Positions 41,330 to 46,950 of a stretch of 47,296 bases of DNA are shown here, in pieces. Under the pieces are notes generated by a model. That model was not told where the DNA came from. It ran no database searches and saw only the letters and a list, made by a program, of their open reading frames with translations. The position numbers and the translations under genes were made by a program. Origin of the DNA: a virus. Numbering within the stretch: the stretch's first letter is position 1; each line of letters starts with the position of its first letter. The stretch covers positions 1 to 47,296 of the IMG/VR virus record IMGVR_UViG_3300022888_000011; one strand, 5' to 3'.

Positions 41330-43268
41330 ATGGGTATGAAGATAAACAGTAAAGAGGCGGTTAAATTTATAATTGCTGCCATGAAAGCAAATCTTGTTAC
41401 CATGATATCTGGTTCCCCGGGTATTGGTAAAAGCGCTATTGTACAACAAATTGCTGATCAATATAATCTTGAACTAATTGATGTAAGATTAAGCCAATGT
41501 GATCCAACAGACCTTAAGTTACAAAGGGCTTCATAAGAGTAATCTTATGTCGAAAACTATCTAAACGGTGAAACACCTTGACTAATGGAAACCCTTAGCA
41601 TATAGTGGGGTAACTATTAATTTTAAAGCGAGGTCAATACCGTGCTAAATACTAATAATGTAAAAGAAGTTTGGGTACCAATTTTAGATTTTGAAAAGAG
41701 ATACGAAATATCTAATTTAGGTAATGTAAGATCCATACAAGACAATCATCATAATTATCGTATTAAAAATATAACAAATTACTTAAGATCTAGAACTTGT
41801 AAATATTTATATGTTCAATTATGGAGAAAAGACAAACCAGTAACTAAAGCAATTCATAGATTAGTTGCCATTGCATTTGTTCCTAATCCCCACAATAAAC
41901 CACAAGTAAATCATAAAGATGGGGTTAAAATAAATAATACTGTAGATCTAAATGATTTATTAGGACCGGGAACAAATATTGAATGGGCTACTTGCTCAGA
42001 AAATCATAAACATGCTTGGGCTACTGGACTAAAAGATCGAGATAAACACACAAAAAGAATGATTGGAACTAAATTTAATGCTGCGTCAAATTACAAAAAT
42101 GTATCTTGGGATAGCTCAAGAAACAGATGGATTGGCGGCGTTAAACATAAAGGAAAAGTCATTAAAAACAAACGCTTCAAAACAGAAATAGAAGCAGCTT
42201 TGCATGTTAACTGGATCATAGATACCTATGGATTAGATAGACCCAAAAACATTATTAGTTAAATTGCGTAACGACCATCCCGCAAGGGAGTACACTCAAG
42301 TGAGTGGAAACGGTAGTCGTCCTACTTATAATAGTAGGATGTTGATATGGTCTATTCTGCATGGTAACATGCAGCAGTTCATAAGAGAACGGATAAAGAT
42401 TAACGAACTTTATCGAATATTAAGTTTGGGCTTTCCTTTTATTAGTGAAGACCGGAAGAAAGCATCTTATGTACCTATGGATATATTTCCATTGGAGAAT
42501 ACTCCGATACCCAAAGGCAAAGTAGGTTTTCTTTTATTCTTGGATGAGATCAATGCATCCTCATTAGCAGTGCAGGCAGCGAGTTACAAGCTGATACTGG
42601 ATGAGAAGGTAGGACAGCATCACTTGCATCCAATGACCAAGATGGTGGCTGCTGGTAACCTTGCTACGGATAAGGCCATTGTGAACCGACAAAGCACTGC
42701 AATGCAGTCCAGACTGGTTCATCTTGAACTGGTAACAGATCCGGAACTATGGCAGGAGTGGGCAGCTAAAGAAGGTATTGATCATCGTATCATTGCTTAT
42801 ATCAACAGTAAGCCAGATGATCTTTATAATTTTAACCCAGAGCATAATGACCATACATTTGCTTGTCCTCGTACCTGGGATTTCCTTTCAAAGATTATTG
42901 GTAGCATTGAAACTAAACAATTGCATACATATTTACCTTTGATTGCTGGTACTGTTAGTGAAGCCATTGCTCGATCATTTGTAATGTTCACTAAAATCTA
43001 CACCAGTATGCCTGATTTCCAAGAAATAATGGCCAGACCAGAATTAGCTCGTTTGGACAATGACCCATCTTTTAGATTTGGTGTATCCCATATGATTGCT
43101 GCTTATACTAAAGCAGATAATATTTCTACTTTAATGACATACATTGAACGCTTACCCCTTGAGTTCCAAACAATTACCCTTCAGAATATTATGCGTAGAG
43201 ATCCAGAAATGATCAAAGAAGATTGTGTTAAGAGGTGGATCTCAGTTAAAGGCCAACAGTTATTTTAA
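41330..43268 (+). CDS. MoxR-type AAA+ ATPase (N4 gp24-like), split by a group I intron
   Basis: Exons 41330-41514 and 42425-43268 join to 342 aa. Exon 1 has the Walker A GSPGIGKSA (28-36) and VRLSQCDPTDL; exon 2 starts LGFPF, has Walker B GFLLFLDEINAS and a C-terminal helical lid. The joined DPTDLLGFPF is the standard MoxR sequence, which fixes the splice point. MoxR ATPases work as chaperones with a VWA protein; the VWA gene lies 0.4 kb downstream, as gp24/gp25 do in N4. N4 gp25 helps RNAPII load on single-stranded DNA. Without splicing the frame ends at 41536. Confidence 0.88.
41515..42424 (+). mobile_element. Group I intron (910 nt) in the MoxR gene
   Basis: Exon 1 ends ...GACCT (U at the splice site); the intron ends with G42424. 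Just inside the intron, CAAAGGG can pair GGG with exon-1 CCU (including the U.G wobble, P1) and CAAA with exon-2 UUUG (P10). The 5' part has a GTGAAACACC...GGAAACCC-type core and the 3' part GTAACGACC...GGTAGTCG with a terminal GTCCTAC...GTAGGAT stem. The HNH gene sits in the middle. Group I is inferred from these pieces; the full fold was not computed. Confidence 0.8.
41642..42262 (+). CDS. Intron-encoded HNH homing endonuclease (NUMOD4/HNH/AP2 type)
   Basis: 206 aa, GTG start at 41642 (GAGGTC upstream). NUMOD4-type N-terminus EVWVPILDFEKRYEISNLGNVRS (9-31), an HNH core IHRLVAIAFVPNP ... QVNHKDGVKINN ... NIEWATCSENHKHA (H72, N90-H91-D93, N121-H122), and a C-terminal AP2-like domain YKNVSWDSSRNRWIGGV ... 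RFKTEIEAALHV. It would cut the intronless MoxR gene and spread the intron. Same strand and inside the intron as is typical. Confidence 0.93.
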   Translation: MLNTNNVKEVWVPILDFEKRYEISNLGNVRSIQDNHHNYRIKNITNYLRSRTCKYLYVQLWRKDKPVTKAIHRLVAIAFVPNPHNKPQVNHKDGVKINNTVDLNDLLGPGTNIEWATCSENHKHAWATGLKDRDKHTKRMIGTKFNAASNYKNVSWDSSRNRWIGGVKHKGKVIKNKRFKTEIEAALHVNWIIDTYGLDRPKNIIS

Positions 43269-44851: not shown

Positions 44852-45721
44852 ATGTCAGAATTAAACGTAAACACAGCCAATATAGCATACATGAATTATT
44901 TAATTAGAACCTATCAGGCAGTTACAAAAGTGATTGCATCCACTAAGAACAGGCTCCAAAGTCTTCCTGGTGACCATCCAGTAAAATTTGATAATATTCT
45001 ACATGGAGAAGACAATGGGAAAAATAAAGAAGTTGGTCTTATAACTATCAAAGGGCGTATTGCCCGAATGGTAGGTAATGAACTAATTCATTGGGATATA
45101 TGGAATTTATGGTTAAAAGATATCCCAGGTATTGGTCCTGTTACTGCGGCTGAACTAATTATGCTGTACTACTATAGGTTCATACCTGTCTGCTCTAAAT
45201 GTAAGACCGACATTGAAAAGATAAACGATACTTACTGGTGCAGTAAATGTGAGAAATCTCTTAAAGGTGATGGCCTTTTAAATTACCGAACTGAAGAAAA
45301 AGATTTTGCAAATATCTCTAAATGGTGGGCTTACATGGGTCGTGATATTAGAGATGGTGCCATGAGAAAAAAGAAAAAGGGTGAGCAAATGAACTGGTCA
45401 GCAGCAGGTAGGAAGTTAGGCTTCCTCATCGGTGAATGCTTCAACAAACAACAACCAGATCATTTGTATAAAAAAGTATGGTTGGAAGAGAGAGCCAAAT
45501 ACCATAAGGTACCAGAAAAGACTCGCTGGACAACAGGCCATATTTATAATGCATCAAAAAATAATACTGTTAAATTGTTTCTGGCTCACTTCTGGACAGT
45601 AGCCAGGACTCTTAGTGGTAAAGATGTAACACTGCCATATGCCATGACAATCATGGGACATACAGGATATGTAGCACCATTTTACTTTGATCCCAAGGTT
45701 GCTAAAGAAATAGCAGCATAA
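44852..45721 (+). CDS. Tas-like protein (IS110-transposase C-domain/Nop-related), nuclease-less
   Basis: 289 aa, ATG 44852 with AAGGAG upstream. N-terminal 80 residues are helical. IPGIGPVTAAELIMLYY (91-107) is the helix-hairpin-helix of the IS110 C-terminal transposase domain; then a zinc ribbon insert CSKCK...WCSKCEK (C114, C117, C130, C133), FANISKWWAYMGRDIRDGAMRKKKKG (152-177), and a C-terminal helical part (AAGRKLGFLIGECF, TVKLFLAHFWTVARTLSG). The DEDD RuvC nuclease half of IS110 is absent and no HNH is present. In TIGR-Tas systems such Nop-like proteins bind dual-spacer guide RNAs; the array starts 22 nt after its stop. This call rests on that context plus the domain. Confidence 0.75.
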   Translation: MSELNVNTANIAYMNYLIRTYQAVTKVIASTKNRLQSLPGDHPVKFDNILHGEDNGKNKEVGLITIKGRIARMVGNELIHWDIWNLWLKDIPGIGPVTAAELIMLYYYRFIPVCSKCKTDIEKINDTYWCSKCEKSLKGDGLLNYRTEEKDFANISKWWAYMGRDIRDGAMRKKKKGEQMNWSAAGRKLGFLIGECFNKQQPDHLYKKVWLEERAKYHKVPEKTRWTTGHIYNASKNNTVKLFLAHFWTVARTLSGKDVTLPYAMTIMGHTGYVAPFYFDPKVAKEIAA

Positions 45722-45743
45722 AATATTAAAGCTACTAACACAT

Positions 45744-46067
45744 TGAAATCTAGGCAAATTATGCGAGTCATAATTGGTTTGAAACCTGTTGTTAAAATAC
45801 AAACTACTCCGGCTATGAAACCTATACTGAGATTGTGAGTTAGAAATATGCTGAAATCTATCTGTGCTGTGCGAGTTACAGGATGATTGAAACCTATTAT
45901 GTTCATGCGAGTTACGATTGACTTGAAATCTATTACCAATATACGAGTTAAAGGAAAAATAAAATCTAAGGATTAAATACGAGTTACCATGCAATTGAAG
46001 TCTATGAACAAACTACGAGCCAAAAATATTCTGAAGTCTAAAATGCGGGTGCGAGCTACTATATGCA
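45744..46067 (+). repeat. TIGR-type dual-spacer array: nine 36-nt units
   Basis: Nine consecutive units of exactly 36 nt start at 45744, 45780, 45816, 45852, 45888, 45924, 45960, 45996 and 46032. Each is 9-nt motif A (TGAAATCTA, TGAAACCTA, TGAAGTCTA; once TAAAATCTA), 9-nt spacer A, 9-nt motif B (TGCGAGTTA, TACGAGTTA; Unit 2 decayed to TACAAACTA), 9-nt spacer B. All 18 spacers differ, e.g. unit 4 TCTGTGCTG and CAGGATGAT. Decayed half-units flank it: TTAAAGCTA at 45726-45734, and TGAAATACA / TGCGTAACA at 46068-46094. A 36-nt unit with two ~9-nt guides is the TIGR arrangement, not CRISPR (repeats too short, two alternating repeats). It is probably co-transcribed with the tas-like gene. Confidence 0.92.
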
Positions 46068-46119
46068 TGAAATACATAAAGAGTTTGCGTAACATTAATT
46101 TTAAAGGAGAATTCATAAA

Positions 46120-46725
46120 ATGAAAAAGAAAAATCTAAAACAGAAATATGAAAAAAAGACTATTGCACAGATTGAGAAATCAATTAAACTGAACTTTGAA
46201 AAGTCCATGGGTCTTAAATTAGAAGCAATGTTAGGCTTATATTTCCTAAAAACATCCAAAAGGTATAAAGAAAATCCTCTATATAAAAAGAGCAGCTTTA
46301 AGGTTTACCTTGAGAGCGTTTACAATATGAGAGAAGGTACATTTGATGATAGTATAAGAGCAGCCTTAAGATTTCCTGATGAAGCCACTAAATATGGAAT
46401 CGGTCTTGTAGCCAAAGTTTTTAGAGATTGTGGTTTTAAAAAAGAAAAAATAGTTTTTAAAGAGATTGCTATTAAAGCCAAACAGCTTAAGACTCCAATC
46501 AAACGAGGGCAGATTGACACCATTATTAAAAAATATGCCAAACCATTACCACCGGCCAAACCTGCATATAAAGAATTATATGTCACTGAAAAAGCTGCTC
46601 ATGATAATCTGATTGCCCAATACAACGATCTCATGACAGCTTATAAGTCTGCCCAGGAACAAATTAAGTTTTTAAAAAAATCAATAGCTAAGTGCCATAG
46701 TCTATTAGGCGAGGATGCAGCATAA
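46120..46725 (+). CDS. Helical basic protein after the array, unknown
   Basis: 201 aa, ATG 46120 with AAAGGAGA upstream, starting about 50 nt after the array. Lys-rich helical N-terminus (KKKNLKQKYEKKTIAQIEKS), a central part with FKVYLESVYNMREGTFDDSIRAALRFPDEATKYGIGLVAKVFRDCGFKKEK in pieces that could be an HTH-like DNA-binding region, and a C-terminal coiled coil (AQYNDLMTAYKSAQEQIKFLKKSI). Position suggests possible association with the TIGR system, or an ordinary replication-block protein. No family recognised. Confidence 0.6.
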   Translation: MKKKNLKQKYEKKTIAQIEKSIKLNFEKSMGLKLEAMLGLYFLKTSKRYKENPLYKKSSFKVYLESVYNMREGTFDDSIRAALRFPDEATKYGIGLVAKVFRDCGFKKEKIVFKEIAIKAKQLKTPIKRGQIDTIIKKYAKPLPPAKPAYKELYVTEKAAHDNLIAQYNDLMTAYKSAQEQIKFLKKSIAKCHSLLGEDAA

Positions 46726-46740
46726 TAGATAAAACAGTTT

Positions 46741-46945
46741 AGCAGGGCACTCCATCGGGGAGAGAGTATATTTTTTAAACGAATGAAATTAACATATCTT
46801 TAGTTTTTACTCATGCCCTGCTAATTTTTTAAATAAACAGTTTAGTTAACATATTAACAGAATGGTCTGTTAACTCACAGGTGGAGTCGAGAAGTTAACC
46901 GGTATACGGGAGCCGTTCCACTACCCGTCTGATAAAATAAGGAGT
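46741..46945 (+). promoter_or_regulatory. Structured intergenic leader before the helicase gene
   Basis: About 225 nt without a gene. AGCAGGGCA (46741-46749) and TGCCCTGCT (46814-46822) are an exact 9-bp pair around a 64-nt loop, followed by AATTTTTT, so together they could end a transcript. Then TTAACAGA...TCTGTTAA (46854-46873) and ACGGG...CCCGT (about 46905-46927) form further stems just before the SD AAGGAG. This may be a terminator followed by a folded leader, or a small RNA. Confidence 0.5.
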
Positions 46946-46950
46946 AACCA

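Follow-up and report, generated by a model that had tools for sequence, protein, structure and literature searches.

What does a phage gain from an RNA-guided protein that lacks a nuclease? The question is raised by the uncultured phage in IMG/VR virus record IMGVR_UViG_3300022888_000011 (47,296 nt in full; hereafter, the window), in which a gene for a Tas protein is followed by an array of short guides and a second gene, the partner gene. TasA is the commonest and least understood type of Tas protein, and its function and the source of the TIGR spacers are stated open questions (PMC12045711). Our analysis reveals that the window protein is a TasA-type, nuclease-less member of the TIGR-Tas family, as firmly as sequence and fold allow such an assignment, and that the partner gene is the third part of the module. 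The family is already known; new here is a TasA that contains a zinc ribbon and comes with an associated gene of its own, both in an N4-like phage and in other phage backbones. With moderate confidence, we favor the reading that this operon encodes a tigRNA-guided, non-cutting TasA that blocks competing elements or host genes with the partner as a co-factor. The module comprises the following features.

44852–45721, + strand: tasA, encoding a 289-residue nuclease-less Tas protein (phmmer, profile, Foldseek and NCBIfam matches)
45191–45250, + strand: zinc ribbon within TasA, C114-x2-C117 ... C130-x2-C133 (cysteines invariant in 12 relatives)
45726–46094, + strand: TIGR array of ten 36-nt guides, in the order edge TGCGAGYYA, spacer A, loop TGAAAYCTA, spacer B
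45726–45734, + strand: opening edge repeat, truncated at its 5′ end (...AGCTA), assigned from the sequence, the like starts of relatives and the rule in PMC12045711
46086–46094, + strand: closing edge repeat, truncated at its 3′ end (TGCG, then TAACA), assigned from the sequence and the like ends of relatives
46120–46725, + strand: partner gene, 201 residues, basic, predicted to be all-helical with a C-terminal coiled coil (co-occurrence; AlphaFold model)
46739–46830, + strand: stem (TTAGCAGGGCA...TGCCCTGCTAA) followed by T6, a likely operon terminator (RNA fold)

The TasA protein and its guide array

An earlier note, made from the sequence, had read the open reading frame (ORF) at 44852–45721 and the strictly 36-nt periodic array behind it as a TIGR-Tas system; both are confirmed, and profile, Foldseek and NCBIfam matches to TasR/TasH bear out the family assignment. 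In a phmmer search against PDB sequences, TasA matches TasR 9mty at E=4e-21 and TasH at 6e-4, and a profile of 12 TasA sequences reaches TasR 9MTY at E=2e-40 and TasH at 6e-11. The NCBIfam model TIGR_Tas_endo matches the window protein at E=1.8e-20 with 73.9 bits, which is under the curated cut-off of the model; the relative in L017 exceeds that cut-off. Consistent with the sequence searches, the AlphaFold model of TasA (predicted local distance difference test (pLDDT) score 83, predicted template modeling score 0.82), which was used for the structural check that the note had proposed, finds only TasR or TasH among its best seven Foldseek matches, followed by IS621, with E values of 0.06–0.16 and probabilities of 0.98–1.00 for IS110/IS621. 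TasA is arranged as an N-terminal coiled coil, a helix-hairpin-helix, the zinc ribbon and a Nop/IS110-type C-terminal domain. As expected in the earlier note, no nuclease domain (HNH or RuvC) is found by Pfam or in the AlphaFold model, which begins with the coiled coil. Identity as an IS110 transposon was rejected: the N-terminal DEDD catalytic domain is absent from TasA in Pfam and in the model, and the NCBIfam IS110 model gives 0.0032, well under its cut-off.

Two features of the module, the four-cysteine zinc ribbon and the basic helical partner gene, seem to be undescribed; the note had overlooked both, together with the truncated end repeats and the register of the guides. The ribbon is placed directly after the helix-hairpin-helix, and 4/4 of its cysteines are invariant across the 12 aligned TasA relatives. 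The insertion is not present in TasR 9mty or in the Tas proteins of Microcystis phage Mvi-JY20, Arthrobacter phage Talia1610 and genome G113, and the main text of Faure et al. makes no mention of zinc (PMC12045711).

The array starts 4 nt past the tasA stop codon and contains ten units of 9/9/9/9 nt; the longest run of the two motifs at fixed spacing is 10 units in the window versus 1 in 20/20 shuffled windows. The nine exact units that had been proposed keep their 36-nt period and their composition of two 9-nt motifs and two 9-nt spacers. Their number is corrected to ten guides at 45726–46094, their exactness holds for length only, as spacers vary freely and repeats show point changes, and their register shifts by half a unit, with TGAAAYCTA as the loop and TGCGAGYYA as the edge. 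TIGR-Tas arrays are described as two alternating 8–12-nt repeats with spacers of about 9 nt and 5–15 units, which open and close with truncated edge repeats (Faure et al., PMC12045711). The A-rich TGAAAYCTA is consistent with the published loop repeat, and TGCGAG has the extra pair described for edges. Furthermore, two pairs link successive edges, each in 10/10 guides: base 7 of one edge with base 2 of the edge that follows, and base 6 with base 3. The first pair (7–2) occurs as C-G, U-A and U-G with pairing kept, and the second (6–3) is once A-U, where edge TACAAACTA meets TGTGAGTTA; by comparison, pairing within the same edge fails in 2/9 and 1/9 cases. Permutation supports this covariation within the window array (p=0.012) and across all 147 guides (p=0.002, with a signal mostly from the window). 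The other arrays, which are almost invariant, give p=0.26 when taken without the window. The truncated ends, the loop and edge features and the edge–edge covariation therefore define ten guides with spacers paired across TGAAAYCTA, and each guide transcript would be 36 nt long, from mid-edge to mid-edge. Rfam gives no match in the window.

The partner gene and the spread of the module

A tblastn search of the window TasA against 50,697 phage records at 1e-5 yielded no match. Scans with TasA retrieved more IMG/VR contigs and one contig of a Candidatus Desulfobacula maris metagenome-assembled genome (MAG), and two further close matches came from 291 relatives of that MAG. All parsed loci besides the window (12/12, including the near-identical N4-like contig L007) have 36-nt arrays with the same two repeats; a long 37-nt array occurs in genome G252. 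HK97-type phages make up several of the relatives and carry the module close to terminase or portal genes, others have it beside replication genes, and the same module is also present in Desulfobacterales genomes. With HK97-type and N4-like carriers, the module therefore occurs in unrelated phages, which shows TIGR modules in unrelated tailed-phage lineages. Three observations stand beside this survey. In L006:1160-1968, a frameshift breaks tasA into two ORFs that overlap, and the arrays on either side of it are intact; this reflects either a sequencing error or a decaying gene. L017:7004-7489 is a strong tandem repeat (30-/45-nt periods, >90% identity) unrelated to TIGR arrays. The isolated phage Talia1610 encodes a distant Tas-like hypothetical protein (XKC21660.1, L023:3641-4324), near which no 36-nt array stood out.

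The partner tracks this TasA clade closely. It is found, in one copy each, in 13/14 records with zinc-ribbon TasA, the sole record without it being G005/L010, a 40.7-kb contig, and it adjoins an array wherever the context is readable, 3′ of tasA or, in L021, 5′ of it. Among the 291 MAG relatives, the partner (E<1e-37) occurs in exactly the same 3 genomes as TasA (E<1e-100), on a separate contig from TasA in G151. Genome G113, with a TasA that has no ribbon, does not contain it, and the records of Mvi-JY20 and Talia1610 give no match to it. The protein is basic (44 K/R versus 22 D/E), and its AlphaFold model (pLDDT 88.6) is all-helical with a 50-residue C-terminal helix; searches by sequence, Pfam, NCBIfam and PDB fold give no confident match to a known family. 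An identity as a ParB protein was rejected: Pfam, PDB sequences and PDB folds all fail to give a ParB match, and hhalign of the partner against two ParB-like phage proteins gives no domain match. The partner therefore probably differs from the TasParB described by Faure et al., a distinction drawn by these ParB-domain tests. Tentatively, the partner may be an obligate second component of a two-protein TIGR system specific to zinc-ribbon TasA, either an effector that gives guided binding its consequence (a spreading roadblock or recruitment of another factor) or a factor for tigRNA processing or spacer renewal.

The stem and T6 located 3′ of the partner, in a stretch (46726–46950) with an RNA fold z of −2.4, suggest that tasA, array and partner may form one operon. 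A simple terminator scan omitted this stem because of its long loop, and that scan of the window gives no terminator directly after the array; a terminator there is typical of TIGR loci, not defining. Between the partner and the helicase gene, the otherwise near-identical contig G002/L005 has, in place of about 100 bases (46833–46933), unrelated sequence that holds a small ORF.

Possible functions of the module

In the mechanism that we favor, transcription of the + strand middle/replication operon would run on across tasA, array and partner gene, and the array transcript would be cut into ten tigRNAs. A TasA dimer would grip one tigRNA via its box C/D-like edge and loop repeats and open an 18-bp site, with spacer A on one strand and spacer B on the other, and would bend the target DNA without cutting it; the processing and pairing steps are modeled on TasR/TasH. 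During infection, the bound complex might then keep competing mobile elements or host genes from being transcribed or replicated. The partner might act with this complex, most likely by binding DNA as a co-factor and so making the block stronger or more extensive. Blocked transcription or replication is the likeliest outcome because TasA has no nuclease, and the module most likely serves to bind foreign or host DNA under RNA guidance and to block it; TasA has been suggested to block without cutting (Faure et al. 2025, PMC12045711). The module suggests that phages may turn RNA-guided, non-cutting DNA binding against other DNA.

The behavior of the spacers fits this proposal, as do the occurrence of the module in unrelated phages and Desulfobacterales genomes and the chance level of guide matches to the phage's own genome. 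Between the sister phages L013 and L015, tasA is 92.9% and the partner 87.6% identical, while 1/19 spacer pairs is clearly related, with A differing at one and B at two positions; spacers change fast and genes stay put. Within arrays (e.g. L008, L010, L017), guides occur that pair one near-identical spacer with one new spacer, and guide pairs with a shared near-identical spacer number 12 versus 1–6 in column shuffles. Guides that follow variable DNA from outside would be expected to look like this.

Several points weigh against guided blocking of foreign or host DNA. Targets were sought as 5′-A, 0–2 nt, reverse complement of B-3′, a rule derived here from the published account and its 8-nt 3′ overhangs (PMC12045711). 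The 147 guides have no match with 0–1 mismatches in 567 kb of related phage contigs; their 22 two-mismatch matches compare with 16–27 for shuffled pairings, and a control geometry (reverse complement of A, then B) gives similar counts. In 244 kb of one Desulfobacula MAG, no host target is found at 0–1 mismatches. Three exact-pattern guide-target scans of all IMG/VR contigs give 17, 21 and 3 matches in several unrelated families, and the four match contigs compared have no similarity to the window or L008; we read these matches as chance, and the three scans name no target. In addition, TasR, which has a nuclease, caused plasmid loss only in E. coli and blocked neither phage nor conjugation (PMC12045711), and the co-factor role of the partner is conjectured from co-occurrence and predicted fold.

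Regulation of the phage's own DNA, which the earlier note had offered, is unlikely. An RNA-guided timing switch for transcription or replication would suit a module that sits in the + strand replication/middle operon beside helicase and VWA genes, and binding to its own DNA would be tolerated by a phage whose TasA cannot cut. However, the best own-genome matches of the window guides have 3–4 mismatches, equal to shuffled spacer pairings and so at chance level; the 0–1 mismatch matches are absent from every phage of the 567-kb set, and the spacer turnover between L013 and L015 also speaks against it. TasR tolerates some mismatches, and weak self-sites may therefore exist.

That TasA is an RNA-guided DNA bender aiding recombination or integration is quite improbable: N4-like phages are lytic, none of the genes examined around the module stood out as an integrase, and ten guides exceed the need of one site. 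Such a role was speculated from the 180-degree bend (Faure et al., PMC12045711), and the fold common to IS110 recombinases and the strong bend in TasR (PMC12045711) speak for it. There is also little to commend a complex that targets RNA in the manner of box C/D snoRNPs to modify or block host transcripts. The Nop fold and box C/D-like repeats are common with snoRNPs, but TasR is inactive on RNA substrates (PMC12045711), and no methyltransferase is seen next to the module of the window. A split nuclease, in which the partner supplies the cleavage, is very improbable despite the tight association of the partner with a nuclease-less TasA; the partner is predicted to be all-helical, matches no nuclease family or fold, and has no invariant acidic or histidine set in its alignment. 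A coding tandem repeat or chance periodicity, to which a period divisible by three and some open frames might point, is refuted by stops in the forward frames of the window, the ten-unit run versus one in shuffles, the recurrence of both repeats next to every close TasA relative, and the covariation across edges.

The module gives a handle on TasA function and on spacer origin, and its sister phages L013 and L015 combine fast-changing spacers with stable genes. It is a portable unit whose second gene tracks one TasA clade almost perfectly and should be tested together with TasA, and in its N4-like carrier the stages of infection are well understood from cultured relatives.

The carrying phage and comparison with known systems

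The window phage is N4-like (Schitoviridae) by its gene sequences, as the earlier note had held. It encodes a 3426-residue virion RNA polymerase (1065 bits), N4-type RNA polymerases, a portal and a terminase, and the portal matches 474 phage records with a top identity of 52.8%. G002, a contig of 66.6 kb, is near-identical to the window, and G001, a contig of 131 kb, has the array of the window with a single spacer base different. G001 (IMGVR_UViG_3300024299_000001; L024–L030) joins ~72 kb of N4-like sequence (59–131 kb) to ~59 kb of other sequence that encodes a separate portal, terminase, DNA polymerase and ligase; short similar repeats mark the joints, the two ends share 115 identical bases, and the contig is either an assembly chimera or a fused genome. 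A search with the VWA gene for an N4-like relative with an empty site gave only two close contigs, both with the module. In the closest cultured VWA neighbours (Vibrio phage VBP47 and Pseudoalteromonas phage pYD6-A), VWA is followed by three small genes and DNA polymerase, a gene order that does not define the borders of the module insertion.

HNH genes are found near the module and in a related contig. The insert of ~980 bp at L002:5211-6190, which the window lacks, encodes an HNH endonuclease and interrupts the helicase gene precisely within its Walker A codons (window 47061/47062); it looks like an intron or homing element, with no group I match in Rfam at the gathering threshold. In the window, an HNH-type ORF (41642–42262) lies directly 5′ of an ATPase ORF (42264–43268) that starts at TTG and has no obvious N-terminal part, possibly another homing insertion, in a MoxR-like gene.

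In our comparison with known systems, TIGR-TasA of Faure et al. (e.g. Flavonifractor plautii FpTasA, PMC12045711) is likewise a solo Nop-domain protein with a dual-repeat array of 36-nt units, two 9-nt spacers and occurrence in phages; the window adds the zinc ribbon and the 200-residue helical gene, a difference judged from the main text of the paper. In TasA–TasParB operons (Faure et al.), too, tasA is accompanied by a second gene, and arrays precede, separate or follow the two; however, their repeats are 10 nt versus 9 nt here, and the window partner has no ParB match in Pfam or fold searches. The TasA of the cultured cyanophage Mvi-JY20 (XAI95461.1, annotated as hypothetical; tasA at L022:5659-6384, array at L022:6385-6740) is a solo Tas with a downstream array and the same edge TGCGAGCCA; unlike the window, it has no zinc ribbon, no partner match and a terminator directly after the array. 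Mvi-JY20 is an isolate in which TasA could be tested. TIGR-TasR (PDB 9MTY) is the best sequence and fold match of the window TasA, and in both systems the repeats start with UG, end in a box C-like triplet and have an extra pair in the edge. By comparison, the window TasA lacks the RuvC domain, its zinc ribbon replaces the short link of TasR, and its box C is more varied (CUA, UUA, CCA). TIGR-TasH (PDB 21KL and related) matches in fold and sequence, while the window TasA is without its HNH domain. The IS110/IS621 bridge-RNA recombinases have the C-terminal fold family in common with the window TasA; they carry a DEDD domain and a single bridge RNA, whereas the window TasA has no DEDD domain, and its locus has a guide array and no transposon organization that could be seen.
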